Below are positions 4,646 to 44,767 of a stretch of 45,997 bases of DNA, one piece after another. Both the position numbers and the translations under genes were made by a program. The DNA comes from Herbiconiux sp. VKM Ac-1786. GTDB lineage: Bacteria > Actinomycetota > Actinomycetes > Actinomycetales > Microbacteriaceae. The stretch is from positions 1-45,997 of the forward strand of contig NZ_JADKSG010000003.1 in the NCBI RefSeq assembly GCF_015350805.1, written 5' to 3'. The notes below the pieces were generated by a model. That model did not search any database. It was not told where the DNA came from and was given only the letters and a program-made list of their open reading frames with translations. How positions within the stretch are numbered: position 1 is the stretch's first letter; each line of letters begins with the position of its first letter.

Positions 4646-4652
4646 GAGACGA

Positions 4653-4676: not shown

Positions 4677-4803
4677 CTCCGGATTGCCGAAGGTGTGTCG
4701 AGAGAGAACCTGTAGTTAGTCCCCGAGTCAGGTGCTTCGTTGGGGCCGGTTGCATGTAACGTTCGTGATACAAGCAGCACGCAATAGTCAGGAACGAGCA
4801 GAC

Positions 4804-7912: not shown

Positions 7913-10900
7913 GCGACGCTCAGCTGATGGAACTCGAGTTCGAACGCAACCTCTGCGAGGAGCTCGGCAGCCGAGGTTGGCTCTATGAGAATGATGGGAA
8001 GCCGACCGGTTGGGACATCGCGCTGGCCCTCGTTCCAGCAGATGTACTGCAGTGGCTCGCGACGCAGTACCCGGAGGAGTACGAGAAGGCCGTCCCGGTA
8101 GATCTCGTGAACAGCCAGCGCACGTCGGCCGAGCGCAATCTGCTCGAGCACCTGACTAGGGAGCTCGCCAAAGCGACAAAAATGGATCCAACCACGGGGC
8201 ATCCGGTAGGAGGCCTTCTAGGCGTGCTCCGCAAGGGTTTCACCTACGCCCAAGTGGGCCGCCCGGCCGCGAAGTTTGGCCCGATGATGGAGTTCCCGCC
8301 GGCTAACCCGAACCTCACGGAGGTCGTCGAGGCGTCTGAGGCCGTGCGGCTGAGGGTCTTACGCCAAGTGCGCTTCGATACCGCGACGAACGAGACCCTC
8401 GACGTCGTGCTACTGGCCAACGGCATACCTGTCGTCACAATGGAATTGAAGACCGACAACACTCAGTCGGTCAGGCATGCCATCCGCCAGTACAAAGATG
8501 ACCGCCGCCCCGGGAAAAACCGGGCGCTGCTGACTCCAGGGCGCGCTCTTGTGCACTTCGCCGTGTCCAACGACCTCGTTTATATGACAACGAAGCTCGC
8601 CGGCGAAGACACTGTGTTTCTGCCCTTCAACCAGGGCGAGAACGGCCATGAGGGCAACCCGCCGTCTAGCACCGGTTCGTCGACGAGCTACCTCTGGAGC
8701 GAGATTCTCGCACGCCCGATGTTCCTGCGGATCCTCAAAGACTTCGCGCTCTTCGAGCCGAGCAAGTCCGGCAAGAAAGAAAATGGGCGCCTAGTTTTCC
8801 CACGGTTTCATCAGCTGCGCGTTGTCGAACGCGTCGTGACAGACATTGAGAAAAACGGGCCAGGCGGGCGATATCTTGTGTGGCACTCCGCCGGCTCTGG
8901 CAAGACAAAGACCATCGCTTGGCTCAGCCACCGTCTAATCCGGCACATGAGCCCCGACTCGAAGTCGACGTTTGACTCGGTGATCGTCGTCACCGACCGG
9001 ACGGTGCTCGACGAGAACATCCGGCACGACATGAACCTTGTACAGTCCAGCAAGGGCCTCGTCGTCGCCGTGGGCGAGAAGTCCGGCGCCAAGTCGCCGC
9101 AGCTGAAAAAGGCTCTCGTCGAGGGCGACCACATCATCACGTGCACCCTGCAAACCTTCCCAGAGGTCATGAGGCTGATCGAGGACACCGAAGAATTGCG
9201 CGGTCGGCACTGGGCCGTGATCGCAGACGAAGCGCACTCATCCCAGACCGGATCCGCCGCGCACAAGTTGAAGGAACTGCTCGTTGACGTCGACCTCGAT
9301 CTCAACGAGGACATCAGCGCCGACGATCTGATGGCGGCCAAGGACTCTGCGATCGCTGCGTCGGCGAACATTACCTTCGTCGCACTCACGGCGACTCCGA
9401 AAGGGAAGACGCTGCGTCTTTTCGGCACCGAGCACAACGGGCGCTGGGAGGCGTTCGACACATACACGATGGCCCAGGCAATCGAAGAGGGCTTCATCCT
9501 CGACGTGCTGACTAACTACTCGACCTACGACATGTTTCTTCGGGTGAAGAACGCTCTAGAGTCCGAAAACGAGACCGAAATCCGTGTCAACACCGGCGAG
9601 GCCGTCTCGACGATCGTTCGTTACGCACGTCTACACCCGACGGCGATCGCGCAGAAAGTCCGCGTCGTCGTTGAGCACTTCCGTCGGAACGTCATGCATA
9701 TGCTCGACGGCGAAGCGAAGGCCATGGTCGTCACCGGAACTCGCATGGAAGCGTTCGGCTGGTCGCGGAAGATGGACGAGTACATCGCGGCACAGGGCTA
9801 CACCGACTTACACACGCTTGTAGCGTATTCGGGCTCGCTCACCGACCCGGACACCGGCGCAACCGTCACCGAAGTCTCGATCAACGGCCGCAGCGACGTT
9901 GAGAGGGCCTTCCGGGAGGAAGGCATATTCCAGGTCCTTATCGTCGCCAATAAGTTCCAGACCGGCTTCGACGAGCCGCGCCTGATGGCGATGTACGTCG
10001 ACAAAAAGCTTTCCGGTGTTGCGACCGTGCAGACCCTTTCGCGCCTCAACCGGATCTACCCGGGCAAGACATCTCCGATGGTGGTCGATTTCCAAAATTC
10101 GCCTGCTTCAATCGAAAAGGACTTCAAACTCTATTTCTCCGATGCTCACGTCGAAGGCGAGGTCGACCCGAACACCCTGTACACGATCGCTGACCGCCTC
10201 GACACGGCTGACCTATATACGGCCGATGAGATGAACGCGGTCGCCGACGCATATTTAAGTGAGGCTGGAGGAGAGGCGATCGCCAAGGCGCTCTCGCCAA
10301 TCAAAAATCGTTGGACTGGACAGGTACGCCAGGCTGTGCTGCGTAAAGACAAGGTCACGCGGGAGAAGCTCATCGCCTTTCGCGCGGACGTCATCGGCTA
10401 TCGCAACGCCTGGCAGTTTCTCAGCCAGATAGTCGACTACCAGGATCCCGACCTCCACCGCCGTGCAATCCTCACCTCGCTGCTAGCGCGGAATTTGCAC
10501 GTCGATGGTGATGACCGCGACGACAGCTATATGGAGGGTGTGCAGCTTTCGGGCGTCAAGCTCGTCCCGTCAACGATCGAGGAGGATCGCTCCCTGACCG
10601 AGGGCAGCGGCGAGGCAATCAAACTCCCCGACTTTGGGGGTGAATACGGCGGAGGTGCCCCTATGCCGGCGCGCGGGCCGCTCGACGAAGCGATCGATAA
10701 AGTCAATGAGATGTTCAAAGCCACAGGAGTGGACGTAAGCCCCGACAGCGTCTCGGGTTTCATTACGACGTTCTGGGGGATCCTCGACGCAAACAAAGAT
10801 GTCGTAGCGATGGCCAAGCACAATACTGTCGCCCAGCTCAAGGCGTCAGAGGGCTTTAGCACCGCCGTCGGCCTCGCTGTACTGAAGACGGTAAGTGAGG

Positions 10901-11034
10901 CGCAGGAGATCCAGTCCTACCTGACCGATCCCGCGTTCCTCGGCCAGATCGCTGAGATCGCAGCGGACGCGCTGCACGCTCAGCACAACGGCGAGACCGG
11001 TGCCGTCGGCGACACAGAGGGATCTGTGGCATGA
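7909..11034 (+). CDS. hsdR: type I restriction-modification endonuclease/translocase subunit
   Basis: 1041 residues, overlapping hsdS by 4 bases (ATGA). The N-terminal nuclease domain shows the PD-(D/E)XK element VTMELKTDNTQS at about 176-187, with a QY pair downstream. The superfamily 2 motor follows: P-loop SAGSGKTKT (about 327-335), DEAH (about 440) and TATPKG (about 490). These parts pump DNA toward the HsdS-bound site and cut at a distance when the site is unmethylated. The size is normal for HsdR. All key residues I looked for are present, so the system appears functional. Confidence 0.95.
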   Translation: MSDAQLMELEFERNLCEELGSRGWLYENDGKPTGWDIALALVPADVLQWLATQYPEEYEKAVPVDLVNSQRTSAERNLLEHLTRELAKATKMDPTTGHPVGGLLGVLRKGFTYAQVGRPAAKFGPMMEFPPANPNLTEVVEASEAVRLRVLRQVRFDTATNETLDVVLLANGIPVVTMELKTDNTQSVRHAIRQYKDDRRPGKNRALLTPGRALVHFAVSNDLVYMTTKLAGEDTVFLPFNQGENGHEGNPPSSTGSSTSYLWSEILARPMFLRILKDFALFEPSKSGKKENGRLVFPRFHQLRVVERVVTDIEKNGPGGRYLVWHSAGSGKTKTIAWLSHRLIRHMSPDSKSTFDSVIVVTDRTVLDENIRHDMNLVQSSKGLVVAVGEKSGAKSPQLKKALVEGDHIITCTLQTFPEVMRLIEDTEELRGRHWAVIADEAHSSQTGSAAHKLKELLVDVDLDLNEDISADDLMAAKDSAIAASANITFVALTATPKGKTLRLFGTEHNGRWEAFDTYTMAQAIEEGFILDVLTNYSTYDMFLRVKNALESENETEIRVNTGEAVSTIVRYARLHPTAIAQKVRVVVEHFRRNVMHMLDGEAKAMVVTGTRMEAFGWSRKMDEYIAAQGYTDLHTLVAYSGSLTDPDTGATVTEVSINGRSDVERAFREEGIFQVLIVANKFQTGFDEPRLMAMYVDKKLSGVATVQTLSRLNRIYPGKTSPMVVDFQNSPASIEKDFKLYFSDAHVEGEVDPNTLYTIADRLDTADLYTADEMNAVADAYLSEAGGEAIAKALSPIKNRWTGQVRQAVLRKDKVTREKLIAFRADVIGYRNAWQFLSQIVDYQDPDLHRRAILTSLLARNLHVDGDDRDDSYMEGVQLSGVKLVPSTIEEDRSLTEGSGEAIKLPDFGGEYGGGAPMPARGPLDEAIDKVNEMFKATGVDVSPDSVSGFITTFWGILDANKDVVAMAKHNTVAQLKASEGFSTAVGLAVLKTVSEAQEIQSYLTDPAFLGQIAEIAADALHAQHNGETGAVGDTEGSVA

Positions 11035-28442: not shown

Positions 28443-28574
28443 TCACGCCAACTCGCGGAGCCGCGGTGCGAGGTCTTTTTCGAAGAGCTCGAGGAATCGT
28501 CGCTGGTCCTGTCAGGGTGCGTGGAATACAAGGTGTTTCAGTCCGGCGTCTACGTACTTTTCGACTTCAGCAAC
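28443..28574 (-). pseudogene. remnant of a flavin/F420-dependent (LLM-class) oxidoreductase, C-terminus
   Basis: On the minus strand the frame reads VAEVEKYVDAGLKHLVFHAP, a TGA stop, then QDQRRFLELFEKDLAPRLRE and a final stop. This matches the C-terminal end of LLM-class luciferase-like oxidoreductases, where Gly normally occupies the stop position (GGA to TGA). There is no start and no upstream portion, so only the last 43 or so codons remain. It abuts a second gene fragment, marking an old deletion or recombination point. Confidence 0.7.
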
Positions 28575-28579
28575 CAATC

Positions 28580-28726
28580 TTCCCCGAGAACACTGCGAGC
28601 CTCGCCCTTCACGAGCGGGATGGCTTTCGCCGCATCGGCACCCGCGAACGCGTCGCCTTGATGACCTACGGCCCGTGGGCAGACAAGTGGCGAGACACCA
28701 TCCTCATCGAACGCCGCTCCGCGTAG
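28580..28726 (+). pseudogene. remnant of a GNAT acetyltransferase, C-terminus
   Basis: The plus-strand frame FPENTASLALHERDGFRRIG continues to MTYGPWADKWRDTILIERRS before a stop. This is the typical end of phosphinothricin-type GNAT N-acetyltransferases. The N-terminal acetyl-CoA site is missing and the sequence before 28580 belongs to a different fragment. It is a truncated relic and not expected to be active. Confidence 0.75.
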
Positions 28727-30402: not shown

Positions 30403-31899
30403 TTATCCCTGGATGCCGGCTGCGGCTTTGAATGCTTCGTCAGTGTCGGTGATCTGCGTCTCCCACGGCGACCGGATGTGCTGCACCAACGTCTCCGGCC
30501 GGGAGGCGTATTTGAAGATGTGGTGCCCGTCTGCGAGGCGCTCGATCTGCTGCGCGGTGTCGGTCCCGAACGCGAACGTGCGCGCCGCCCAGAGCGCGTC
30601 TTCACGGAGCGTCTGCCGGTGCACGTGAACGGTTTGGGCTTCCTGGATCATCGCCATGCCGGGCGAACCGGGCGGGATGTCGGTGCCTTTGTGGAACACG
30701 AACACGTTCGACAGGCCGAGCCCGCGGGAGAGTTTCTGGTTCGAGCGGGCGAGCTGGGCGGAGGGGCCGGCGGCGATGTGCCAGCCCTCTTCGTAGATGC
30801 AGTTCGTCGCCCAACCGCGATCTTCGCGGAGGCGGCCGAGGAGCCACATGTGACCGATCGCCATCACGGCCGGCACCGCCGGCCCCTGGTCCGGGAGCTG
30901 CGAGATGTCGAACACGGTCAGCTTGCCCCGAAGGTCAACGTTCTTCGACGTCTCGCCGTCGAGGAGCCCGCCGTAGTCCTGCAGCAGCGTGTTGAGCGTG
31001 AACCGTACCGACAGCCCGGCCTGGTGCAAGGCATCGATCGCCTGCGGTGACAGACCCGCGTAGTCGTCCATGTCGGCGACCCGGGAGAGGTTCGGCAGGA
31101 CATCCGCCAGTGTCGGCGTGCGGCCCTCTTGGTGCTCGGCGACCGTGCGGCGGAGGGCGGCCCGGAGGGCTTCTTCCTCCCATTCGTTGAGCGCCTGATC
31201 TTCGCGGGCGAGGCGGGCGACGACGTTGAGCAGCTGCATCTGGCCGACCATGCCGGTGCCGCGGCTGATCATGGGGTCGAGGAGGTTGAGGCGGGTGCCG
31301 GAGCCGTCGACGGCGAACTTGATCGGCTCGTGCCCATATGCCCGTGCCAGCTCGCCGTATTCGCCCTCTCCCCCGCGATCTTTCTTGTCGAACGTGCACG
31401 CCCGCCGCTTGTTCAGCAGCAGCGGCCGGATGACATAGACGGTCTTCGTCAGGGACGATTTGCCGGAGCCGACGTCGCCGATCACGACGACGTTGGGGCT
31501 CGAGACAAGCCGGGGGGATGCGTTGTAGGCGGTGACGGGGTCGTGGGCGATCATCGTGCGCGAGAGCACGTCACGGCCGATCACCACCCCGTTGGTGCCG
31601 GTCGGTGCGCCGATGATCGCCGTGTTGAGGATTTCAGCCTGCCGGGTCGACGTCGGGGCGCCCGGCAGCGCGGGCGCGTAAAGACCGCGGCGGGCCGCGC
31701 TGAGCTTGGTGCGGAGCCGCGTCCCGGGCATCGTCCAGGGCACGATCTCGCGCGCCTCGCCGGTGGCTTCGTCGACCTGAGCAGCCGTCTCGACGGGCGG
31801 TGCGAATGCGCGCAGCACCGGCATCGTGTGCCACGCCTTCGCGGCCTCTTTGCTTTCGGCTTTCCGGTGCTTGTCGGTGTCTGCGGCGTGTGCGCTCAC
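30403..31899 (-). CDS. VirB4-like type IV secretion ATPase
   Basis: 498 residues from a GTG at 31899 that overlaps the preceding stop (GTGA). The P-loop is GDVGSGKSS at 141-149 after NVVVI, with a Walker B near LTVFDISQL. Typical VirB4/TraE elements follow: NCIYEEGWHIAAG, then SRGLGLSNVFVFHKGTDI, and a C-terminal RPETLVQHIRSPWE. It powers assembly or substrate transfer through the channel. The N-terminal non-ATPase part usual in VirB4 appears to be carried by the SCO6880-type protein encoded just before it. Confidence 0.9.
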   Translation of the reverse strand: MSAHAADTDKHRKAESKEAAKAWHTMPVLRAFAPPVETAAQVDEATGEAREIVPWTMPGTRLRTKLSAARRGLYAPALPGAPTSTRQAEILNTAIIGAPTGTNGVVIGRDVLSRTMIAHDPVTAYNASPRLVSSPNVVVIGDVGSGKSSLTKTVYVIRPLLLNKRRACTFDKKDRGGEGEYGELARAYGHEPIKFAVDGSGTRLNLLDPMISRGTGMVGQMQLLNVVARLAREDQALNEWEEEALRAALRRTVAEHQEGRTPTLADVLPNLSRVADMDDYAGLSPQAIDALHQAGLSVRFTLNTLLQDYGGLLDGETSKNVDLRGKLTVFDISQLPDQGPAVPAVMAIGHMWLLGRLREDRGWATNCIYEEGWHIAAGPSAQLARSNQKLSRGLGLSNVFVFHKGTDIPPGSPGMAMIQEAQTVHVHRQTLREDALWAARTFAFGTDTAQQIERLADGHHIFKYASRPETLVQHIRSPWETQITDTDEAFKAAAGIQG

Positions 31900-33545
31900 A
31901 GCGCCTCCCTCTCGCTCTTGCCCGCGAGGGCGTTGATGAACCTGGACCCGAACGATGACCGGCCCGGGGTGAGGCCGCGGCCGATCGGCCAGGTCGTGCC
32001 GGATGCGGCCGCCTGGTAGGAGTCCTGCCACTCCAGCCGCTCGATTCCGAGCCCGGTCGCGCATGTCTCCTCGAGCGCGCGGGAGGCGCGCATGAGTGCG
32101 TCCCGGTCCCGTTCGGAGATCGTCACGTAGCCGACCCAGGCGCCGCCGTGGTGAGGCGACCCGTGGGCGAGATCGAGCGCCCGCCGGCGAGCTGCGGACA
32201 GGTTGGCTCCGGTTTCGTCGTTCTCGACGCGGCCCTTCTGGGCATCGTCGAGCCGGTCGGCGCGGTCGCGAGTGACGTCCTTCGCTGTCGCGGCCTTCGC
32301 CTCGCCCTTGGGCACCAGGTGCAAGTGGAACGAGAGAGTTCGGATGAATCGGATGTCGGACCCGGTGAGCAGGTCGAGCGCCCAGAGCTGGCCGCGGGCG
32401 CCCATTGCCATGTTCTCCGACCGGATCGCGGCCGTACGGTGCCACCACTGCACTGGGGTGCCCATGATCGGATCGACGCCGTCGACGATCTGCGCGGAGA
32501 ACTCATCGTGCGACGCGACACCGAGACGGGCCGGGTCGACACCTTTCACGAGGTCGATAGGTCGGGATGGGTTCTGCTGGTGCAGTATCACCGCGGCCAG
32601 GCGGCGTGCGGTGAGCACGTCGACGTGGCCGACGCGGGCCTCGGTGAGGCCGCGGAGCGTCGAGGCGATCTCCTGCCGCATCAACCCGCGCCAGCCGTCG
32701 CGGCCCTCGCCGTACTTCGCGGCCGCGTCATGGAAGGCGGTCGTGATCGGCCAAGAGACGGTGAAGAAGTGCCGCTGCACCATCGCGTCTTCGCTGTTGA
32801 GGCGCAGCACGTTCTCGTAGGAGCGCACGGCCTCGGCGGGTGCGTCCGGGTCGAGGGAGCTGAGCACCCAGAACTCCTGCATCGCCGAATCCGCCGGCAA
32901 CACCCGCGTAGTCATCTGCACGTCACTGACCAGGTTCATTGGCGTTGCCCGAGACGCCAGGAACAGACCGAACGCCTCAGCCGCGCGGCGGAGCTTCGCG
33001 GACGACTCTGACCCGGATACCTGCCCGGTCGCGGTAAACGTGACCGACAGGTACGGCTGCTCGCCGAGTGGGGCGTGCCAGGCGATGCCGGGTTCGTTGT
33101 GGCCGCATTGCAGCCAGCCCATGCCGTCGGCGCCGTCCGGGTGGCTTCGCATGATCGTGAGCTGCCGGGCGGCCTCCCACTTCTCGGTGCGGCCGCGGGC
33201 CTGTGCTGCGGCTTGTTCGCGCTGATCCCACTCGGCGACGTCGAAGGGCTCGAATGCGTCGGTTCCGGTGTTCACCCGAGCCCGCCACCGTGCCCGGCGG
33301 GTGCGCCGGTCGAGGATCGACCCGCGGTGCGTGCGCTGGGTCAGGAAGAACACCACCAGGCCCACGCCGAGCCCGAGCGCGAGGCCCCAGATGCCGAGGA
33401 TGGGTGTGAGGACGAGCATGGCGAGGAACGCGCCGAGGAGGCCCACGATGCGGGTTTTGGAGACGGTTCCGCCGAAGAACGAGCGGTGCCCGCTCTCGCC
33501 GCCGATGTGGCGGGCGGCATCGCTGTGGAGTTGTTCCGTGGTCAC
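31896..33545 (-). CDS. SCO6880-family secretion protein (split VirB3/VirB4 N-terminal-like)
   Basis: 549 residues. Two adjacent hydrophobic helices at about 33-70 (IVGLLGAFLAMLVLTPILG, GLALGLGVGLVVFFLTQ) resemble PrgI/VirB3 anchors. A large soluble part follows with WDQREQAAAQARGRTEKWEA and HLHLVPKGEA. This layout matches the actinobacterial SCO6880 family found beside VirB4-like ATPases. It overlaps the VirB6-like gene before it and the ATPase gene after it by 4 bases each. The role is inferred as the membrane-anchoring partner of the ATPase. Confidence 0.85.
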   Translation of the reverse strand: MTTEQLHSDAARHIGGESGHRSFFGGTVSKTRIVGLLGAFLAMLVLTPILGIWGLALGLGVGLVVFFLTQRTHRGSILDRRTRRARWRARVNTGTDAFEPFDVAEWDQREQAAAQARGRTEKWEAARQLTIMRSHPDGADGMGWLQCGHNEPGIAWHAPLGEQPYLSVTFTATGQVSGSESSAKLRRAAEAFGLFLASRATPMNLVSDVQMTTRVLPADSAMQEFWVLSSLDPDAPAEAVRSYENVLRLNSEDAMVQRHFFTVSWPITTAFHDAAAKYGEGRDGWRGLMRQEIASTLRGLTEARVGHVDVLTARRLAAVILHQQNPSRPIDLVKGVDPARLGVASHDEFSAQIVDGVDPIMGTPVQWWHRTAAIRSENMAMGARGQLWALDLLTGSDIRFIRTLSFHLHLVPKGEAKAATAKDVTRDRADRLDDAQKGRVENDETGANLSAARRRALDLAHGSPHHGGAWVGYVTISERDRDALMRASRALEETCATGLGIERLEWQDSYQAAASGTTWPIGRGLTPGRSSFGSRFINALAGKSEREAL

Positions 33546-37304: not shown

Positions 37305-37415
37305 GCTTACCTACCCCCCGAAGTGGTGACTTCTGACTAGGTTATGCCTACCTTGGGACATTAGACCTGAATTCCTTAGCTTGCATTTCAATTACAAGGT
37401 AAGAGAGCCGCTCTC
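37305..37415. promoter_or_regulatory. divergent promoter region of the transfer operon
   Basis: 111 bases between the ParA-like ATPase and the winged-helix regulator. TACCTTG at 37349-37355 and CAAGGTA at 37395-37401 are inverted copies. This is the natural place for control of the whole transfer operon by the adjacent regulator. Confidence 0.55.
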
Positions 37416-37796
37416 ATGAACGACGTCAAGCCCGACCTTTCAGGCCGCACAGCGGTCCGCCGGGCCCCGGGGCACAATGGAGCCATGCCGAGCCGTCGAG
37501 ACCCGACCGACATGCCCGAGCGAGCCGAGGTTGCGTATCGCTCGATTTCCGGCAGCTCTCGCATGATGACGCTTCGCTTCCTTCTCGACCACCCCAAGTC
37601 GACGGTGGCCGCGATCGCGGACGCGACAGGAGTGAGCCCCGCATCGGCGCGCGTCTCGCTCACGGATCTCGAAGAAGCCGGCTACGTCACCGCCGATGTC
37701 GAAGGCCAACGCAATGGCCGCACCGTCCGATACTCCGCCGATCGCGGAAAGTTCGTCGACGACCTCAGCCTGCTGTGGTCCTGGATGGTTCGCTGA
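37416..37796 (+). CDS. winged-helix (ArsR-like) transcription regulator
   Basis: 126 residues from ATG 37416, with AAGGTAAGAG upstream; ATG 37485 is an alternative. The winged-helix is clear: RMMTLRFLLDHPKSTVAAIA, then TGVSPASARVSLTDLEEAGY and a wing VEGQRNGRTVRYS. There is no metal-binding Cys cluster, so it is a wing-helix of the ArsR/MarR class with another signal. Divergent placement beside the transfer operon suggests that it controls conjugation genes. Conserved palindrome copy 3 lies 19 bases after its stop. Confidence 0.8.
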   Translation: MNDVKPDLSGRTAVRRAPGHNGAMPSRRDPTDMPERAEVAYRSISGSSRMMTLRFLLDHPKSTVAAIADATGVSPASARVSLTDLEEAGYVTADVEGQRNGRTVRYSADRGKFVDDLSLLWSWMVR

Positions 37797-37815
37797 CTCC
37801 GTCAGCTCGAGCTGA

Positions 37816-37833
37816 TTGACACCTACGTGTCAA
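37816..37833. promoter_or_regulatory. conserved palindrome, copy 3 of 4
   Basis: TTGACACCTACGTGTCAA, one substitution from the perfect palindrome. It lies downstream of the winged-helix regulator and at the upstream edge of the first nrdH leader. Confidence 0.75.
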
Positions 37834-37885
37834 CGCCACTCCCCCGCTGCGCGGTCGCCCCAATGCCAAGACCGGCCGCCACATC

Positions 37886-37982
37886 GTAGCTCGCTCCCGC
37901 CACTCCGTTCCGAACTTCTCGGACGCGCCCTGACGGGCTTATTTCGCCCGACAAGATCGGCACTGCGCGCCTCCCGCTCACT
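37886..37982 (+). ncRNA. conserved structured leader upstream of nrdH-like gene 1
   Basis: About 97 bases that match the leader of the second redoxin gene (43690-43788, minus strand) at roughly 89% identity, with 2 gap positions. They lie 52 bases upstream of the start codon. Possible stems: TCCGA/TCGGA around ACTTC, and GGGC which can pair either with the GCCC before it or with the GCCC after TTATTTC. The coding regions downstream are far less similar than the leaders. This is a candidate cis-regulatory RNA or protein-binding leader; it matches no riboswitch class that I know. Confidence 0.6.
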
Positions 37983-38034
37983 CTCGATGCTCTTGCCGGT
38001 TTTGGCATTTCAAAACGTCTGGGAGGAACAGATC

Positions 38035-38265
38035 ATGGTCACCGTTTACGGCCGAAGCGATTGCGCGCAGTGCACCGCCACGAAACGAACCCTCGAAATC
38101 AAAGAGGTCGAGCACGTGTACCTCGACGTCGAGCAATTCCCCGATGCGTGCGCCTACTTGCGCTCACTTGGTCACCAGCAGCTCCCCGTCGTGATCGCCG
38201 GGCCGGCTCATTGGTCAGGCTTCCGCCCCGACCTCATCGTGACTCTGGCGGTACACAGTCGTTGA
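38035..38265 (+). CDS. nrdH: NrdH-like glutaredoxin 1
   Basis: 76 residues from ATG 38035 with a strong GGGAGGAA. The redox motif CAQC lies at about 11-14 (YGRSDCAQCTATKRTLEIKE), and the C-terminal HWSGFRPDLI matches NrdH, which carries WSGFRP. NrdH proteins pass electrons from thioredoxin reductase to class Ib ribonucleotide reductase. No nrdI, nrdE or nrdF is on the plasmid, so it would serve host enzymes or a general disulfide role. A second copy lies at 43401. Confidence 0.9.
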   Translation: MVTVYGRSDCAQCTATKRTLEIKEVEHVYLDVEQFPDACAYLRSLGHQQLPVVIAGPAHWSGFRPDLIVTLAVHSR

Positions 38266-38385
38266 TAATGCAATAGTTTATTTGTTTCTAATAGTTCTCA
38301 TAAACTACTGGTTTGCAAGCCTTTAAAGTATTGTGTTGCTGCATTTTATTGCGTTACCATAAACGTAATATTTGGAGGAAGCGTC
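38266..38385. promoter_or_regulatory. AT-rich repeat region before parA (candidate centromere/operator)
   Basis: 120 AT-rich bases, in sharp contrast to the GC-rich plasmid. AATAGTTTA at 38272-38280, AATAGTTCT at 38290 and the inverted TAAACTA at 38301-38307 form repeated and inverted words. A strong TTTGGAGGAA ribosome site for parA ends the region. This is the usual position of a partition centromere and par promoter. Confidence 0.7.
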
Positions 38386-39264
38386 ATGCCGCACATCACG
38401 ACAATCGCGAACAACAAGGGCGGGGTGGGAAAGTCACACCTGACGGTGCAGCTCGCCGCGGCCCTTGCGCGACGAGGGTTGCGGGTCTTAGTGGTCGATC
38501 TCGACCCACAGGCGAATACGACTCGACGGCTCGGAATCGATATCGATCCGCAAAATGCGATCGTAACCATGTCCGAAGTCATCAAGTCCGGCGAGGACGG
38601 TGCGGGGGAGTCCGCAGTGCTTGCGTGCGGCTGGGTCGATAGCGAGGGCCAACCCACCTCGGAGTCAGAGCTAATCGATGTCCTGCCATCACGATATGAC
38701 CTCATCAATCGCGAATCCGAGGCGGCCGTTCTCGGTGCAGTGCGTCGCCTCCGAAGAGCGCTCACCGGGTGGATCGACGACTACGACGTCGTGCTCATTG
38801 ACACTCGGCCAGACCTCGGCCACCTGGTGCAGATGGCATTTGCTGCTGCCGACACCATCCTCATCCCGACTGACCCCGCCTACGACTCAATCGAAGCGGC
38901 GATCCGCGTGCGTGACTTCGTCGAGCGCCACGCTGTCGACCTCGTGAACCCGGATCTTCGCGTCGCCGGCGTCGTCGTCACTCGTCGCAAGCCGACAGCC
39001 GAACACGACTTTCAGATTCAAGGCATCGAGGAGCAGTTCGGCGACCTGGTGTGGAGCCTCAAAGGCCCCGTGCACTGGCCAGACGGGGGAGTAACGGTCA
39101 ATCCGGCGTACATCCCCGAATGGTCGCGGTTCACGGAAGCAGATGCCGCCGCGGCATCTCTGAGCTCTTACAACGATCGAAACTCACGCAAGACCGTTGC
39201 CCTGTATGACGCACTCGCGACACGATTCATCGACGAACTAGTCCCGACGGGAGCACGAGCATGA
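38386..39264 (+). CDS. parA: plasmid partition ATPase ParA
   Basis: 292 residues. The deviant Walker A is NNKGGVGKSHL at 9-19, followed by VLVVDLDPQANTTRRLG (Walker A' with the Asp) and VVLIDTRPDLGHLVQMAF (Walker B). ParA moves plasmid copies over the nucleoid when stimulated by its DNA-bound partner. It lacks the N-terminal DNA-binding domain of type Ia ParA, so it is type Ib-like. The ATG of the partner gene overlaps its stop by 4 bases. Confidence 0.95.
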   Translation: MPHITTIANNKGGVGKSHLTVQLAAALARRGLRVLVVDLDPQANTTRRLGIDIDPQNAIVTMSEVIKSGEDGAGESAVLACGWVDSEGQPTSESELIDVLPSRYDLINRESEAAVLGAVRRLRRALTGWIDDYDVVLIDTRPDLGHLVQMAFAAADTILIPTDPAYDSIEAAIRVRDFVERHAVDLVNPDLRVAGVVVTRRKPTAEHDFQIQGIEEQFGDLVWSLKGPVHWPDGGVTVNPAYIPEWSRFTEADAAAASLSSYNDRNSRKTVALYDALATRFIDELVPTGARA

Positions 39265-39695
39265 GCCAGCCCCAGCGGCGTCGCCCTGGAAGCGCGAGTC
39301 CGATCAAACTTGTGCCCACAGTCGAGCCGGTGCAAACGCCGACCGTGACGGTGCCCGAAGCGCCGGTGGAAGCGTCCGCAGTTGCGCCTCAGCCCGCTAA
39401 GCCGGCCGGGCGCGGGCCTGTCAAGTCGCCACCCGCGACCGCTCCAACTGCCACAAAAGACGCCGCCGACGTCAAGACACCGGTGACAGTGACCATCCAC
39501 CGATCAGTCAAGAAGACCGCCGAGACCGCCGTGCTGCGTACGGCGGGATTTCCGAACGGTTATCCCTCGTTCTCCGCACTTGTTGAAGGGGCCATCCAGC
39601 GCGAGCTGCAACGTCTTGCAGACGAGTACAACGGGGGAGAGGCGTTTACGCCTAACGGAGGAAGCTTCCGCCAGGGTCGACCGTTCAGCTCGTAG
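39261..39695 (+). CDS. parB: ParB-like centromere-binding partner
   Basis: 144 residues. The first 70 are a Pro/Ala/Thr-rich, probably disordered arm that may stimulate ParA. The C-terminal domain (VTIHRSVKKTAETAVLRTAG, then SFSALVEGAIQRELQRLADE) has the strand-helix-helix pattern of ribbon-helix-helix centromere-binding proteins. The end (FTPNGGSFRQGRP) is typical of actinobacterial plasmid ParB-like proteins. It is translationally coupled to parA. It probably binds the AT-rich repeats upstream. Confidence 0.85.
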   Translation: MSQPQRRRPGSASPIKLVPTVEPVQTPTVTVPEAPVEASAVAPQPAKPAGRGPVKSPPATAPTATKDAADVKTPVTVTIHRSVKKTAETAVLRTAGFPNGYPSFSALVEGAIQRELQRLADEYNGGEAFTPNGGSFRQGRPFSS

Positions 39696-39755
39696 GAGCG
39701 ATCGGCCCACATGCACTTGTATATTCGGTTCAACGCGTAAAGGGGGAGTCACACC

Positions 39756-40904
39756 GTGGCTGTGCGTGTTCCGGTAAGCCCAACGATGCTGACGTGGGCG
39801 CTTCAACGGTCCGGCATGCCGACAAGCAGCGCGCGCTATGAACAATTCTCCAAGTGGGCGGCCGGCGATGGGCAGCCGACCTTCAAACAGTTGGAGGGAT
39901 TCGCCCACGCCACACATACCCCCCTTGGCTACCTGTTCCTGCCGGAGCCACCTGAGGAACCCGTACCAATCCCGGACTTTCGGACGCTCGGCAATAACGC
40001 CATCAGTGCGCCGAGCCCCGATCTGCTCGACACAATCTACGAAGCGCAGAGACGCCAAGACTGGTTCCGCTCGTATGCGGCCGATCAGGGCCACGAGCCG
40101 TTCTCCTTTGTGGGCTCGGCCACGATCGACGACTCCCCGGCCGTTGTGGCCGACGAGATTCGTCGCATGCTCGACTTCGGGTTAGATCGGCGCGCACGCT
40201 TCTCCTCCTGGGAGGAGGCTCTGCGGCAACTAATCGACTCTGTAGAGCAGCTTGGCGTACTCGTCATGGTGTCCGGCATCGTTGGGAGCAATACCCACCG
40301 GATACTCGATCCCAACGAGTTCCGGGGATTTGCGCTCACCGACCCCCTGTCGTCTCTGGTTTTTGTGAACGGTGCGGATACGAAGTCTGCGCAGATATTC
40401 ACTCTCATCCATGAGCTGGCCCACATTTGGCTGGGCGAGACGGCGCTGTCGGACGCGCAGATGGCGAACCAGACTCAGAACGATCACGAGTTGTGGGCGA
40501 ACAACGTCGCCGCCGAGGTTCTAGTGCCGTCTAGCTCGATCAAGATCGACTATCGGCAAAACAGCGATCTCGGCGAGCTGCAGCGTCTAGCACGGCTCTA
40601 CAAGGTCAGCACTCTCGTCGTTCTGAAACGCATTTTCGATAACGGATTCCTCACTTGGGACGACTACCGCGCTCGCTATCAGACCGAGCTAGAACGACTG
40701 AAAGAGATCATTGCCTCACGAAAGGGAAGTGGCGGCGGTGACTACTACAACACCCAGCCTCTTCGGATCAGTCAGTCGTTCGCGCGGGCCGTGATTGTGG
40801 ACGCCCTAGAAGGTCGCACGCTGTATCGGGACGCCTTTAGTCTCCTGGGTGCCGCCAAGCGATCCACCTTTGAGGGCATGGCCAACAAGTTGGGGGTGGC
40901 GTGA
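39756..40904 (+). CDS. XRE / ImmA-IrrE metalloprotease-type antitoxin
   Basis: 382 residues from a GTG with AAGGGGGAG. The N-terminal part (TMLTWALQRSG, then FSKWAAGDGQPTFKQLEGFA) is a divergent XRE helix-turn-helix. The ImmA/IrrE domain has the zinc motif HELAH at 219-223 followed by IWLGE, with a further Glu in AAEVLVP. Proteins of this class act as antitoxins beside PIN-type toxins, or cleave repressors. It overlaps the DUF4411 gene by 4 bases, and together they form a type II-like stabilisation module. Confidence 0.9.
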   Translation: MAVRVPVSPTMLTWALQRSGMPTSSARYEQFSKWAAGDGQPTFKQLEGFAHATHTPLGYLFLPEPPEEPVPIPDFRTLGNNAISAPSPDLLDTIYEAQRRQDWFRSYAADQGHEPFSFVGSATIDDSPAVVADEIRRMLDFGLDRRARFSSWEEALRQLIDSVEQLGVLVMVSGIVGSNTHRILDPNEFRGFALTDPLSSLVFVNGADTKSAQIFTLIHELAHIWLGETALSDAQMANQTQNDHELWANNVAAEVLVPSSSIKIDYRQNSDLGELQRLARLYKVSTLVVLKRIFDNGFLTWDDYRARYQTELERLKEIIASRKGSGGGDYYNTQPLRISQSFARAVIVDALEGRTLYRDAFSLLGAAKRSTFEGMANKLGVA

Positions 40905-41386
40905 CGTATCTGCTCGACGCCAATATTTTCATTCAGTCGAATCAAGCGCATTACGGGCTGGACTTCGTGCCGGCCTTCTGGGATTGGCTCGACCGCTCCT
41001 TCAATGCTGGTCTGCTGAAAAGCATTCAACCCATCGGCACTGAGATCGCCGCCGGACAGGACGATCTCACGACCTGGGCGGCGGCTCGCTCGTCGATGTT
41101 CGTGCCGATGGATGCAGCGTGTGCTCCCAGCCTGCAAGCCCTTGCCACGTGGGCGAGCGCCGGGCATTTCACCGCTGCTGCTGTCACCGAGTTCCTGGGA
41201 GCGGCGGACTACGAGCTGGTCGCGTATGCGCACGCGCACAGTCTCACCGTCGTCACGATGGAGAAGTCGGAACCGCAACGACGCAACAAGGTCAAAATTC
41301 CAGATGCATGCATCGCACACGGCGTCGCTTGGAGGACTCCGTTCGAAATGCTGCGGCTCGAAAAAGCGTCCTTCGTCCTGCCGTAA
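40901..41386 (+). CDS. DUF4411 PIN-like toxin
   Basis: 161 residues starting inside the stop of the ImmA/IrrE gene. The PIN-domain pattern is MTYLLDANIFIQSNQ with Asp7, later IGTEIAAGQDDL with its acidic Glu, and KVKIPDACIAHGV with the late Asp. This family pairs with XRE-ImmA/IrrE proteins in predicted toxin-antitoxin systems and is expected to be an RNase. The acidic residues needed for metal binding are present, so it may be active. Confidence 0.85.
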   Translation: MTYLLDANIFIQSNQAHYGLDFVPAFWDWLDRSFNAGLLKSIQPIGTEIAAGQDDLTTWAAARSSMFVPMDAACAPSLQALATWASAGHFTAAAVTEFLGAADYELVAYAHAHSLTVVTMEKSEPQRRNKVKIPDACIAHGVAWRTPFEMLRLEKASFVLP

Positions 41387-41397
41387 CTCGAGCCGGG

Positions 41398-41415
41398 TTG
41401 ACACCTAGGTGTCAA
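41398..41415. promoter_or_regulatory. conserved palindrome, copy 4 of 4
   Basis: TTGACACCTAGGTGTCAA, identical to copy 1, with GG/CC flanks extending the symmetry to 22 bp. It lies in the 36-base gap between the convergent PIN toxin and HicB-like genes, so it cannot serve as a simple promoter operator there. Confidence 0.8.
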
Positions 41416-41422
41416 CCGAAGA

Positions 41423-41869
41423 TCAGTGTGAGAGCTGGCTGATTCGTTGAGCGGAGAGGCCGAGCGCGCGGGCGACGTCGGCTTGTGTGAGCCCGCTCTT
41501 TTTGAGGGTTTGCACTGCTTCGCGCCGAAGGCGCGCGGCCGCTGCTGCCGCTTCGCGGGAGTGCTCTTCGTTTTCGTTGGCTTCGGCCCACATCATGGCC
41601 GCGGCCTCGGGGAGCTCCACAGTCACCTCCACGGCGATCTCGTCGTCGTCGACGTCGAGCCAGACGGCGGCGAGGTCGCGGGCGGCCTGGTCAACGTCTT
41701 TCAATGCGACGGCACCGCCGATTGCGACGATGGTGGAGCCGTTGGGGCCGGTGGAGGTGAGTTCGGGAATCTCGATCGTCCACCACTTGCCGGCGTCGCG
41801 GTAGGCGCGTGCGTGGAGCGTGCGGGGTATCTGGCTGGTCTTCACATCAATTCCATTCACGAGGCGCAT
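41423..41869 (-). CDS. hicB: HicB-like antitoxin with XRE helix-turn-helix
   Basis: 148 residues. The N-terminal HicB-like domain is RTLHARAYRDAGKWWTIEIP with ELTSTGPNGSTIVAIGGAVA, followed by an Ala/Glu-rich helix and a C-terminal helix-turn-helix (LTQADVARALGLSAQRISQL). The antitoxin would bind HicA and repress the promoter. Its start lies 23 bases inside the end of the broken hicA frame. The gene is intact even though the toxin frame is shifted. Confidence 0.85.
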   Translation of the reverse strand: MRLVNGIDVKTSQIPRTLHARAYRDAGKWWTIEIPELTSTGPNGSTIVAIGGAVALKDVDQAARDLAAVWLDVDDDEIAVEVTVELPEAAAMMWAEANENEEHSREAAAAAARLRREAVQTLKKSGLTQADVARALGLSAQRISQLSH

Positions 41870-42055
41870 CCGGGAAAATCTGCTGAATCTGTCGCACCAC
41901 TCCGACCGAGACCTCGCCCTTGTGAGCGACGAGTGAGAAGATCATGCCGGATTCGGACGGTCCCCAGATTTCGTGGCTGCCCTTTGGCGTTTGAACTCCC
42001 AGCCCTTCGATCGCAGGAACTTGGTAACGTCCCGGTACTTCTGCGGCTTCGTCAT
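41847..42055 (-). pseudogene. hicA: HicA mRNA-interferase toxin gene with a single-base frameshift
   Basis: From ATG 42055 the frame reads MTKPQKYRDVTKFLRSKGWE then FKRQ, and shifts at the AAAGGG run near 41980-41985. In the next frame it continues KGSHEIWGPSESG, MIFSLVAHKGEVSVGVVRQI and QQIFPDAPREWN to a TGA at 41847. Adding one A in that run restores a 69-residue HicA with its catalytic His (GSHEIW). The total length of 209 bases is one short of a multiple of three. It is either a real inactivating deletion or a sequence error. Confidence 0.85.
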
Positions 42056-42064
42056 AACACTAGT

Positions 42065-42101
42065 CTAGTCCCCCTAGATAGTAAACATCAAGGGGGACTA
42101 G
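42065..42101. promoter_or_regulatory. inverted-repeat operator upstream of hicAB
   Basis: 11-bp perfect arms CTAGTCCCCCT (42065-42075) and AGGGGGACTAG (42091-42101), 10 bases upstream of the hicA start. The likely target of HicB autoregulation. Confidence 0.8.
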
Positions 42102-42107
42102 ATGTTT

Positions 42108-42314
42108 TCAGCTAGTTGGGTACAGGATCGCGTGGCCGATCAGGCCAACGATGAGAGGTCCGATGATGAGCAGCAGCCCGAGCGCGAATGCGGCAAGGGA
42201 TGCGCGGGCGATTCCGCGGCGGCCGCGGGCGCGGATCGGTAGCACGCGGGGGAGTACGAAGAGCACGGCGCCACAGGCGAAGACGGCAAAGCCCGCCGCC
42301 TGTAGCGCCTGCAT
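42108..42314 (-). CDS. small two-helix membrane protein (68 aa)
   Basis: 68 residues with two membrane helices (AAGFAVFACGAVLFVLPRV and FALGLLLIIGPLIVGLIGHA) joined by a basic loop. It starts 3 bases after the SprT-like gene stop, so the two are co-transcribed. The function is unknown. Confidence 0.6.
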   Translation of the reverse strand: MQALQAAGFAVFACGAVLFVLPRVLPIRARGRRGIARASLAAFALGLLLIIGPLIVGLIGHAILYPTS

Positions 42315-42317
42315 GGT

Positions 42318-42953
42318 TCACCCCTCGTCGTCCTCTGCTTCGAACTCAGCGTTGCACACACCGCAGACGATGGGGCCGACCTCGAACGTGGAGCGGCTGA
42401 CGCGGAGCTTCCGGCCGCATTCGCACACGGCGACCACACCGTTGTTGGTCTTCGTCTTGCCCGCACCTGCGATGTCGGTCAGGCGGTAGGCGACGATCGC
42501 GGCATCGAGAGCGTCGATGACGGCGCGGTAGCTGTGGGCCGTTTCGTCAGGTACGTCGGTGATCGACCAGCCGATCGAGGGGTCTTTGGTGAGGGTGAGC
42601 CCGAACTCTTCGCCGATGGCCTTGAAGCGGGTGTTGTGGAATCGGCCCTGACGGCTGGTGTCTTTGATCCCGCGGGCCTCGGCGGCCGCGTGGGCGGCTT
42701 CGTGGATGAGGGTGCCGAGCACGGCGCGGCCGCCGCGCTGGAGCCCTTCACCGCCCACCAGCAGCTCGTGCACGAGAGCGTCGCCGCGAGCCCAGCGGGA
42801 GGCGGCGAAGTGGCCGTAGGCCATGCCGCCGCGGCCGTTGCCGGATGCGAGGGTCACGACGACCTCGGGAACGTCTTCGTGACGTTCCTGGATCGCGGCC
42901 CAGGCTTCTTCGATCGCGGCCACGAGGGGCACGGTGATTGTTGTGGTGGTCAT
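42318..42953 (-). CDS. SprT-like zinc metalloprotease-type protein
   Basis: 211 residues from ATG 42953 with CAGGAGG. The metal motif HEAAHAAAEARG lies at about 87-98 inside VLGTLIHEAAHAAAEA, followed by the SprT element GRFHNTRFKAIGEEFG. A zinc ribbon sits near the C-terminus: VCECGRKL and later VCGVCNAEF. SprT-like proteins act on DNA-protein crosslinks in eukaryotes; plasmid and phage copies have no settled function. The start overlaps the upstream gene by 4 bases. Confidence 0.8.
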   Translation of the reverse strand: MTTTTITVPLVAAIEEAWAAIQERHEDVPEVVVTLASGNGRGGMAYGHFAASRWARGDALVHELLVGGEGLQRGGRAVLGTLIHEAAHAAAEARGIKDTSRQGRFHNTRFKAIGEEFGLTLTKDPSIGWSITDVPDETAHSYRAVIDALDAAIVAYRLTDIAGAGKTKTNNGVVAVCECGRKLRVSRSTFEVGPIVCGVCNAEFEAEDDEG

Positions 42954-43387
42954 CGTGCTGCCTCCTGGTCGTCGGTTCCGGGGTGGTGTGCGTCGCCCTC
43001 TTCGTCGCCTTCGGCGTGACGCTCGATCCACAAGGCGGCGGTGTCAATTGCTCCGGCTGCGCGGAGGAGGTCGGCGAGGGCGTCGACCTCGCCGCAGTTG
43101 AGGGTCGTGGCGACGTCGCCCGCGGTGTCCCAGGTGAACGCGGCCACGAATCGCTCGAGCACGGTCGTAGGGATGGGGGTGCTTTCGGTGACGGTGTAGC
43201 CGGAGAGGATGCCGTCGTGCATCAGGGCGAGTTCTTCGATAGTGGAGTTCATTGCGTCGTGCTGGTCGAAGGGGATGAGTCCGGAATCCCAGTTCTCGCC
43301 GTACTGGTGGTCGAGCCACTTCGAGGCAAGTTCGACATCGGTGGCGGCGGTGATCGTGGTTCCGTCGGGGGTGGTGAGTGTGAGCAT
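42950..43387 (-). CDS. hypothetical protein (145 aa)
   Basis: 145 residues, acidic, with AAAGGACG before the ATG. It has no cysteine motif or membrane helix. The sequence (MLTLTTPDGTTITAATDVEL, LASKWLDHQYGENWDSGLIP) looks like a small soluble domain. It is coupled to the SprT-like gene by a 4-base overlap and follows the NrdH-like gene by 13 bases, so the four genes 43643 to 42108 appear to be one transcript. Family not recognised. Confidence 0.65.
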   Translation of the reverse strand: MLTLTTPDGTTITAATDVELASKWLDHQYGENWDSGLIPFDQHDAMNSTIEELALMHDGILSGYTVTESTPIPTTVLERFVAAFTWDTAGDVATTLNCGEVDALADLLRAAGAIDTAALWIERHAEGDEEGDAHHPGTDDQEAAR

Positions 43388-43400
43388 GGCCGTCGTCCTT

Positions 43401-43643
43401 TCAGAGTGCGTCGATGCAGTCGGGGCGGAATCCGCACCAGCCGTCCCAGGTGCCGGTGACGATCACGACGGGGAGCTGCAGGTAGCCGAGTTCGCGTAGC
43501 AGCTCCTCGGCGCCGGGGGTCTGGTCGATGTCGACGGGCTTATAGGTGATGCCTTTGCGGTCGAGCGCGCGATACGTGGCGGTGCACTGCACGCAGCCCG
43601 GGCGGCTGTAGACGGCGACCCTCGTCGTGATGGTGATTGTCAT
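43401..43643 (-). CDS. nrdH: NrdH-like glutaredoxin 2
   Basis: 80 residues from ATG 43643 with GGAGAG upstream; a GTG at 43655 is in frame but less well placed. The redox motif is CVQC in VYSRPGCVQCTATYRALD, and the end WCGFRPDCIDAL matches the NrdH WSGFRP element with Cys in place of Ser. It differs clearly from the first copy in coding sequence but shares its leader. First gene of a leftward unit with the SprT-like gene. Confidence 0.9.
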   Translation of the reverse strand: MTITITTRVAVYSRPGCVQCTATYRALDRKGITYKPVDIDQTPGAEELLRELGYLQLPVVIVTGTWDGWCGFRPDCIDAL

Positions 43644-43689
43644 GGTGCTCTCCAAACTTTTTCTCGGGCCGAACCCTCACTTGCATGGC

Positions 43690-43788
43690 AGTGAGCGGGA
43701 GGCGCGCAGTGCCGGAGTTCTCGGGCGAAATAAGCCCCGCAAGGGGCGCGTCCGAGAAGTTCGGAACGGAGCGCCGGGAGCGAACTAC
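43690..43788 (-). ncRNA. conserved structured leader upstream of nrdH-like gene 2
   Basis: About 99 bases, 46 bases upstream of the redoxin start, matching 37886-37982 at about 89% identity. The changes include an added C on one side and an added G on the other side of the first stem (GCCCC/GGGGC here, GCCC/GGGC in the other copy), a compensatory pattern. This supports a folded RNA, but two copies are few. Confidence 0.6.
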
Positions 43789-43843
43789 CGTGTGAGCGAG
43801 GGTTTGGCCAGAGAGGGGCCGAGCGCAGCGGGAAGGAAACAGC

Positions 43844-43859
43844 GGCCGGCAGGCCGGCC
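43844..43859 (-). terminator. GC-rich hairpin after the gene at 43860
   Basis: Reading leftward, the palindromic stretch GGCCGGCCTGCCGGCC directly follows the TAA stop, then GCTGTTTCCTTCCC. It can form a 5-6 bp GC stem with a modest pyrimidine tail. Probable terminator between this gene and the nrdH leader. Confidence 0.5.
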
Positions 43860-44183
43860 TTATTTGCCTGGTCGGCCAGGCTTCGGGATCGTCACAGCGG
43901 AGCGCCAGACCCACGCCTGATGGGTGCCGCCGCCCTGGGTTTCCCACTCGACGAGCACCATCCGGTCGTTGTACGCGACCACCCGGCCGGCGACCTGGAC
44001 CGTCCACTCGGGGTAACGCACCCACGCGAGCACGCGGGGGGCTTCCTCAGCCGGCGGCTGCTGCACTGCCTCACCAGTGGACTTCTTCTCGTCTTCGGTC
44101 AGCGAGAGCGGTTTCGGGCGAACCAAGACCGCATTGATCGCCTTATTGGTCAGGTCAGACCCGTATCGGCGATTGGTTCCCAT
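43860..44183 (-). CDS. hypothetical protein (107 aa)
   Basis: 107 residues from ATG 44183, with CTGAGGGC upstream. The C-terminal half (WTVQVAGRVVAYNDRMVLVE, then THQAWVWRSAVTIPKP) is a small beta-barrel-like stretch of alternating hydrophobic residues. The N-terminal half is charged. Seen as a likely conserved plasmid gene, but I do not know the family. Divergent from the gene at 44288. Confidence 0.6.
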   Translation of the reverse strand: MGTNRRYGSDLTNKAINAVLVRPKPLSLTEDEKKSTGEAVQQPPAEEAPRVLAWVRYPEWTVQVAGRVVAYNDRMVLVEWETQGGGTHQAWVWRSAVTIPKPGRPGK

Positions 44184-44287
44184 GCCCTCAGATTAGAACA
44201 TACGTTCGAGCAAATGGATGCCAGTGGGGAAGCGAACCATCTCCCACAGATCGATGTTGGTGATGTCCGCGCAGATAGTCTTTCCGG

Positions 44288-44767
44288 ATGGCGCAGAAGG
44301 TTGAATCGACGGAGTGGGCCGTGCCCGCTGATCTTGTGACGGACGTTGCAAGTCCGGACGCCCTGTACCTGCTGCCTAGTTTGAGAGATTCCGCCGGCCG
44401 CCCTGCATACCGCCCTGAGAGCATGTTCATTCAGAAGGATGCGAGTAGCGGGGGGTTGAAGGTTGAGTATGCACTCAACGAGGAGGATCGCCGCTTCGTT
44501 GATCATTTCTCTGCGGACGTTTCAGAGATTGAATTATGGCTTGGGCTTATTGGACCTGTCACTGACGTATTTCTCTTCGGCCTGGGTTACATCATCGACG
44601 GAATTGTCAGACGCCGCGGCTCCAAGCGTGATGACGCCGACACGATTCCTCTCAAAATCCGAATCGCGAGTTTGAACCCGAAGACGGGAAAGATCAAGGG
44701 AGTTCGCGTCGAAGGTTCTGCGTCGGATGTGATGGAGGCCCTGCGCGAGCTTAAGGAAAAGCCGTGA
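44288..44767 (+). CDS. unknown protein, first gene of a two-gene unit (159 aa)
   Basis: 159 residues. A hydrophobic stretch lies at about 82-107 (LWLGLIGPVTDVFLFGLGYI) between a charged N-terminus and a soluble C-terminal part (PLKIRIASLNPKTGKIKGVR). It could associate with the membrane. It overlaps the next gene by 4 bases. Base composition is lower in GC than the transfer genes, suggesting separate acquisition. No family recognised. Confidence 0.65.
   Translation: MAQKVESTEWAVPADLVTDVASPDALYLLPSLRDSAGRPAYRPESMFIQKDASSGGLKVEYALNEEDRRFVDHFSADVSEIELWLGLIGPVTDVFLFGLGYIIDGIVRRRGSKRDDADTIPLKIRIASLNPKTGKIKGVRVEGSASDVMEALRELKEKP

Follow-up and report, generated by a model that had tools for sequence, protein, structure and literature searches.

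The DNA analysed here is the entire 45,997-base contig NZ_JADKSG010000003.1 of Herbiconiux sp. VKM Ac-1786 (hereafter the window), which carries two copies, A and B, of a hairpin element in inverted orientation, each immediately upstream of a gene for an NrdH-like glutaredoxin. The genome comprises four contigs and 3.89 Mb. Its closest NrdH relatives are on Herbiconiux contigs, and in Herbiconiux gentiana (G001, the source of L012) the elements have the same coordinates as in a further genome assigned to the genus (G013). Judging from sequence comparison, each copy is likely to be a single-stranded-DNA (ssDNA) promoter of plasmid establishment genes. In the mechanism we propose, the plasmid would enter the recipient as one strand, and the template strand of the downstream gene would fold into a long imperfect hairpin. 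The 3' arm of the hairpin would provide the non-template strand, with TAnnnT as the -10 box and GGnACG at -35 distance, and the internal loop adjoining the -10 box would keep the start region partly open. RNA polymerase would travel from the apex to the base of the hairpin and then onward along the single strand, so that a short-leader mRNA for ParB-like proteins, NrdH, ArdC, DprA, SSB and others would be made before the second strand exists. In double-stranded DNA the hairpin would be lost and the promoter would be off. We infer that the strand transferred is the one that folds, that RNA polymerase reads it, where transcription starts, and that activity is confined to ssDNA.

Behaviour of this kind has been described for the Frpo/ssi elements: their folding restores -10 and -35 boxes, from which leading genes are expressed early and transiently (PMC9849209, PMC11541004). 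The experiments on ssDNA promoters presented in PMC9849209 concern F and ColIb-type plasmids.

Two copies of a covarying hairpin element upstream of nrdH-like genes

An earlier note, made from the sequence alone, described two inverted, similar leaders before nrdH-like genes whose coding sequences had diverged further. This description holds: the leaders are 88% identical over query positions 11-113 (E 9.6e-31, blastn within the own genome), whereas NrdH-like proteins A and B share 49% identity over 72 residues. The stems quoted in the note are present in the sequence as well. A leader is indeed found at both places, but its length, given as about 98 bases, was too short, since the conserved unit spans about 160 nt per copy (37857-38017 and 43657-43817) and is closed by a long outer stem. 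An inverted-repeat search returned arms at 37924-37982/43690-43748 (59 nt, 86% complementary) and at 37880-37930/43744-43794 (51 nt, 90% complementary). A single covariance model, R1, fits copies A and B, both of which are among the 19 copies used to build it. The DNA fold of copy A has an energy of -37.2 kcal/mol (z -3.28) and that of copy B -47.4 kcal/mol (z -5.51). The parts of the two copies and the genes that follow them are listed below.

37857-38017, minus strand (which folds and serves as template for nrdH A): hairpin element, copy A; R1 133.3 bits, E 1e-28
43657-43817, plus strand (which folds and serves as template for nrdH B): hairpin element, copy B; R1 137.6 bits, E 1.1e-29
37883-37888, minus strand: TACGAT, the -10-like TAnnnT of copy A, read from the sequence; column conserved in 106/106
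43786-43791, plus strand: TACCGT, the -10-like TAnnnT of copy B, read from the sequence; column conserved in 106/106
37906-37911, minus strand: GGAACG at -35 distance in copy A, with a 17-nt spacer; the consensus is GGnACG, not TTGACA (sequence; ungapped logo positions -23 to -18)
43763-43768, plus strand: GGAACG at -35 distance in copy B (sequence; ungapped logo)
37938-37947, minus strand: GCGAAATAAG, the conserved apex of copy A (pattern match; alignment)
43725-43734, plus strand: GCGAAATAAG, the conserved apex of copy B (pattern match)
37864-37876, plus strand: arm 1 of the outer stem of copy A, complementary to 37995-38007 (sequence and fold)
37995-38007, plus strand: arm 2 of the outer stem of copy A (sequence and fold)
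38021-38026, plus strand: ribosome-binding site of nrdH A, GGGAGG, 8 nt before the ATG (sequence)
43648-43653, minus strand: ribosome-binding site of nrdH B, GGAGAG, 4 nt before the ATG (sequence)
38035-38265, plus strand: nrdH A, open reading frame for an NrdH-like glutaredoxin; NCBIfam NrdH models with E 4.8e-24 and 7e-22, both below the curated cut-offs
43401-43643, minus strand: nrdH B, open reading frame for an NrdH-like glutaredoxin; Pfam Glutaredoxin 48.6 bits

To assemble related copies, nhmmer matches with E>0.01, the loci L008 and L009 (the window again) and an antisense match in the window were dropped, which left 20 copies; R1 was built from 19 of them, the most divergent (L004:1157) being omitted. 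The full set comprises 112 matches, 111 of them longer than 110 nt and 106 distinct and longer than 150 nt. When the search with R1 was repeated on 10 records or genomes, all chosen for holding copies, every one gave matches. RNAalifold applied to the 19 copies, on the strand opposite to the downstream gene, predicted 23 pairs, 15 with compensatory changes. Across 108 distinct copies, 94.8% of cells are paired and the covariation score is 0.503, compared with 0.032-0.073 when the partners were slid and 0.148 for shuffles. The outer stem is variable in sequence (in copy A, TGCCAAGACCGGC/GCCGGTTTTGGCA). The covariance-model search and the slid controls thus bear out the earlier view of a conserved, structured regulatory leader with real covariation. 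The claim that it matches no known riboswitch class also stands: Rfam gave no match at E<=1 in 37400-44300, Rfam 15 gave none at the gathering score in the entire window, and six related loci yielded three tRNAs only.

The element is spread widely within the family Microbacteriaceae. In an evenly drawn sample, R1 matched 75 of 398 Microbacteriaceae genomes in 33 of 85 genera at E<=0.01, and 60 of the 398, in 25 genera, at E<=1e-5; two or more copies were present in 50 of the 75 matching genomes (60 genomes, 25 genera and 50 multi-copy genomes are hand tallies from per-genome rows). An order-wide sample gave matches in 9 of 396 genomes at E<=0.001, six of them Microbacteriaceae and three with weak partial matches elsewhere, and a phylum-wide sample of 396 matched in the own genome alone; weak matches are lost in these large scans because stricter filters were used. 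A class-wide scan with the strict tip pattern found 1 of 296, again the own genome. A distant blastn search with copy A returned 10 plasmid records, nine of Microbacteriaceae and one of Arthrobacter by name. In a profile search, several plasmids carried multiple copies, in a single orientation per plasmid stretch and with different genes downstream; on a Mycetocola plasmid the copies precede parB, dprA, DUF3846 and nrdH, and the 32-kb plasmid W03 holds four full-length copies. A phage origin was rejected: a blastn search of 50,697 phage records, made with copy B only, returned no match, and three IMG/VR contigs match the tip pattern, none of which matches R1 at E<=0.1.

Strand preference, promoter-like boxes and downstream genes

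The template strand of the downstream gene is the better folder. It folds better in all of the first 20 copies with both RNA and DNA parameters, with a mean DNA z of -4.2 versus -3.0 for the mRNA strand (by z, one copy prefers the mRNA strand), and in 105 of 106 copies with DNA parameters. After composition was removed by shuffles, 62 of the 68 non-redundant copies still favoured the template strand (Wilcoxon p 9e-12). G-T wobble pairs point to the same strand. In a MAFFT alignment made without structure, 158 belong to the template strand and 100 to the mRNA strand, and the main stem accounts for 112 versus 22 (sums for the main stem, outer stem and tip were added by hand from alignment rows). 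The model-fitted alignment of 107 distinct rows gave 224 template-strand G-T versus 14 A-C, but the structure-free counts are preferred because model-fitted counts lean toward the model. Together with the covariation, the better fold in 105 of 106 copies places the hairpin on the template strand, as in ssDNA promoters of the Frpo/ssi type.

A structured leader within the mRNA was the starting hypothesis, and the earlier note likewise took the element for an RNA regulator. Such a cis-acting leader (a riboswitch, attenuator, thermosensor or protein-binding leader) would explain why the element usually lies directly before a start codon with a ribosome-binding site and why its stems covary, and the mRNA strand also folds (mean z -3.0, with the better z in one of 20 copies). 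The hypothesis was set aside because the opposite strand proved to be the better folder, in 105/106 copies and beyond composition, and the wobble pairs of the main stem favour that strand too. Furthermore, an mRNA leader would leave the invariant TAnnnT on the template strand unexplained, lacks an Rfam match at E<=1 in 37400-44300, and would be shared by genes without a common pathway. The sequence 5' of the hairpin showed no conserved promoter, with 0.12-0.22 bits at each position and TAnnnT in 3/68. We therefore regard an mRNA leader as unlikely.

TAnnnT is invariant: all 106 of the 106 copies have it at a single column of the template strand, and only the three bases inside it differ between copies. 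No other column on either strand exceeds 25/106 for TAnnnT. The motif lies in the arm that is the non-template strand if the folded strand is transcribed toward the gene; in plain double-stranded DNA, the box would face the other way, away from the gene. When a Mycetocola copy (L003:15976-16135) was folded as DNA, TAnnnT was located in the 3' arm, in a short bulged helix beside an internal loop. The -10-like box thus sits in the stem, as in Frpo/ssi-type promoters. GGnACG precedes TAnnnT by 17 nt, and its conserved bases are present as G 94, G 86, A 81, C 75 and G 85 of 106. The start codon follows the end of the element by 13-27 nt in 72 of 110 cases; the other picks lie at or before the element end (13/110) or at 32-176 nt (25/110). 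These starts come from a picker that accepted GTG and TTG and a loose ribosome-binding motif (motif in 109/110).

The 106 downstream proteins, which were picked automatically, belong by Pfam to ParB_N (18), glutaredoxin (14), DUF3846 (11), DprA (10), the ArdC N-terminal domain (9), M78 peptidase (8), DUF3560 (4) and SSB (3), the others being few per family or unassigned. By class, then, establishment genes such as those for ParB, SSB and ArdC follow the element. The set resembles the leading region of F, in which SSB, a ParB/RepB/Spo0J protein and an antirestriction gene are encoded on the traM strand. Further copies in front of redoxin genes, as the earlier note anticipated, were found (the 14 glutaredoxin matches), but specificity for redoxins is contradicted by the range of other genes, since most copies precede ParB, DUF3846, DprA, ArdC, DUF3560, SSB or unassigned genes; on this ground the idea of a regulon for redoxins alone was rejected.

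Orientation relative to relaxase genes and competing explanations

Relaxase genes of two families (PF08751 or PF03432) were counted in searches that covered 43 chosen genomes or records, and orientation was recounted by repeating the search on 26 genomes or records, with full-length matches only. On 27 relaxase-bearing contigs, the lead gene of 77 of the 79 full-length elements is on the relaxase strand; 25 contigs are uniform, none is reversed and two are mixed (G030 and G105). Seven partial matches on the tallied contigs agree with this co-orientation, and so do partial matches on the relaxase-bearing contigs G117:C3, G360:C3 and G360:C1 (chromosome-sized). The contig G321:C1 is mixed too, but was left out of the tally, since it is chromosome-sized and about 2.1 Mb separates its relaxase from the elements. 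Relaxase genes are typically located in the lagging region, according to PMC11541004. If they are the last to enter, the strand that comes in would be the one serving as template for the element-led genes.

The window itself departs from this pattern. Copy A is opposite in direction to the conjugation cluster, as in the relaxase plasmids inspected, and copy B is not; the cluster is represented by the following gene.

31896-33545, minus strand: SCO6880-family conjugation protein of the transfer cluster; NCBIfam NF042935 67.8 bits (cut-off 60)

The mixed Herbiconiux-type contigs, including the window, carry no relaxase of the searched families. A Replic_Relax relaxase as the explanation for mixed orientation was rejected, being found in 1 of 17 genomes or records (G321, about 2.1 Mb from the elements) and in none of the Herbiconiux type. 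The mixed plasmids may use an unfamiliar relaxase or another entry route, or their copies may serve either strand.

Several points weigh against an ssDNA promoter. The window, NZ_CP053345 (a Herbiconiux plasmid) and other contigs of the genus have copies in both orientations, as do contigs of G080, G143, G195 and G321, and one entering strand cannot serve both. The transferred strand was deduced from relaxase orientation, and the co-orientation count may be inflated by shared backbone synteny. At -35 distance the consensus is GGnACG instead of a TTGACA-like box. The wobble pairs of the outer stem are neutral (41 template versus 39 mRNA strand), and those of the tip favour the mRNA strand (5 versus 39), as an mRNA leader would predict; the tip result was given less weight because it pools copies whose tips differ in sequence. 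As a control, folding of the Frpo2 block of F with DNA parameters gave -50.8 for the template strand versus -49.9 for the other strand. Because Frpo2 is nearly without a strand difference, better folding of one strand is no hallmark of known ssDNA promoters. Finally, a sister class that shares the tip of the element (described below) has no TAnnnT at the same place.

The folded strand could instead prime second-strand synthesis, as a single-strand conversion origin and not a gene promoter. The strand logic would be identical, and Frpo has been given both roles, as the title of Masai and Arai 1997, as cited, indicates. Priming, however, does not need the short distances to start codons, nor is it expected to require four full-length copies on the 32-kb plasmid W03, and we assign this function a low probability. 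An imperfect inverted repeat acting in double-stranded DNA, bound by a plasmid regulator or extruded as a cruciform to control an ordinary promoter, seems about equally improbable. It would account for repetition before several operons of one plasmid, in the manner of a regulon, and would allow both orientations, as in the window. Nevertheless, a duplex site would not be expected to covary over its whole length, wobble pairs and loops included, the mRNA strand has no conserved TAnnnT, and orientation is strict on most relaxase contigs. A structured RNA that is antisense to the leader and comes from the template strand would fit the better fold and the purine-rich loops of that strand; we consider it very improbable, as it would presumably need a start point at or within the 5' end of the downstream gene across many unrelated gene contexts and would leave the short start-codon spacing without a role. 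A folded-strand recombination site like integron attC, dividing mobile gene cassettes, would also be a folded strand repeated between genes, but the link to start codons and ribosome-binding sites makes it scarcely credible.

The earlier note also proposed that the inverted copies could recombine and invert the 38-43.7 kb segment. This was rejected on synteny: four related contigs were compared (L216, L217, L172 and, provided that it is circular, L218/L219), and in all of them the alignable interior lies in the same direction relative to the flanks as in the window.

Relation to known systems, variants and other features of the window

The element resembles the Frpo/ssi elements of F and ColIb-P9 in several respects. 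Its hairpin is comparable to the fold of F's Frpo2, at about 150 nt, copies within a plasmid are near-identical, it lies upstream of SSB, ParB-like and other leading-region genes, and a -10-like box sits in the stem. The led genes run in the direction of traM in F and in that of the relaxase gene in the actinobacterial plasmids. It differs in having GGnACG and not a TTGACA-like sequence at -35 distance, G+C-rich stems, a conserved GCGAAATAAG apex and, unlike Frpo2, a marked strand preference; its hosts are Actinobacteria, and its promoter activity is a prediction. There is no sequence homology by R1, which had no match at E<=0.1 in the 48-67 kb region of F (L195). The element would therefore work like Frpo without being its sequence relative, a functional assignment made by inference.

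In Gram-positive bacteria, the EGeRS repeats of the pLS20 family are similar in being conserved and placed before several establishment operons of conjugative plasmids (PMC8708921). As argued there, EGeRS1 is not an ssDNA promoter, since it is much longer, its fold holds no promoter and the transferred strand is the non-template strand. In the actinobacterial element, by contrast, the fold, the -10-like box and the deduced strand agree. For a pneumococcal island, PMC11541004 reports no sequence with significant similarity to Frpo. The same source describes the 300 commonest leading-region families, with anti-defence, methyltransferase, SSB and toxin-antitoxin genes oriented for transcription from the T-strand. 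Like the leaders in Rfam, the element is a covarying structured leader, but it matches no family there and its better-folding strand is not the mRNA. A search of the open-access literature, with subscription journals and preprints outside its scope, found no description of the element or of ssDNA promoters in Actinobacteria.

We lean, if only somewhat, toward a broader proposal. Actinobacterial plasmids may have evolved their own family of ssDNA promoters independently of Frpo, with a grammar of GCGAAATAAG apex, GGnACG, 17 nt and TAnnnT, present in 25 (E<=1e-5) to 33 (E<=0.01) sampled genera of Microbacteriaceae and driving a Gram-positive establishment regulon (ParB-like, ArdC, DprA, NrdH and SSB) from the entering strand. 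Where a plasmid has copies both ways round, each of its strands could turn on an establishment gene when it enters, and the tip-sharing sister class would extend the family to Arthrobacter and Dietzia. Single-stranded promoters decide which genes a conjugative plasmid expresses first in a new host, and a large covarying actinobacterial family would make the question of Gram-positive ssDNA promoters directly testable. The covariance model would mark establishment genes and could predict the transferred strand. Such a family would also draw attention to early genes not yet characterised (DUF3846, DUF3560 and plasmid DprA and NrdH) as candidates for establishment or anti-defence functions.

The sister class was recognised by its 35-45-nt apex, also present on plasmids of Dietzia, Leifsonia, Curtobacterium and another Arthrobacter (L209-L213). 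These loci share only the GCGAAATAAG-type apex and the nearby stem with R1 (E 1.3e-7 to 0.0045), and their stems and promoter-like boxes differ from those of the R1 class. They precede operons with parB, ssb or DUF3560 and nrdH, or hypothetical genes. In all five loci folded, it is again the template strand that has the more stable fold.

Variants were also seen among the R1 matches. Four loci (L006, L167, L168 and L170) have longer leaders, with an extra conserved stretch like CCCCGTAGT..ACCACGGG between the hairpin and the start codon; this stretch could form a hairpin of its own. On a chromosome-sized contig of G228 (L194), two weaker copies are arranged divergently back to back (4238-4401, plus strand, and 4536-4705, minus strand) about 1.5 kb from three tRNA genes, perhaps in an integrated element. 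A third match to R1 in the window, at 28504-28650 on the minus strand, is weak (17.8 bits, E 0.015) and probably due to chance.

The remaining observations concern other parts of the window. Two near-palindromic, near-identical 18-mers, TTGACACCTACGTGTCAA and TTGACACCTAGGTGTCAA, are located at 37816-37833 and 41398-41415, each 11-20 nt past the stop codon of a gene, and are operator- or terminator-like. A gene for an M78/IrrE-type peptidase overlaps a DUF4411 gene by 4 nt at 39756-41386, an arrangement reminiscent of toxin-antitoxin or defence gene pairs. At 4732-11034 there are type I restriction-modification genes, among which Pfam identifies HsdM and HsdS; the large open reading frame after these two could be HsdR.

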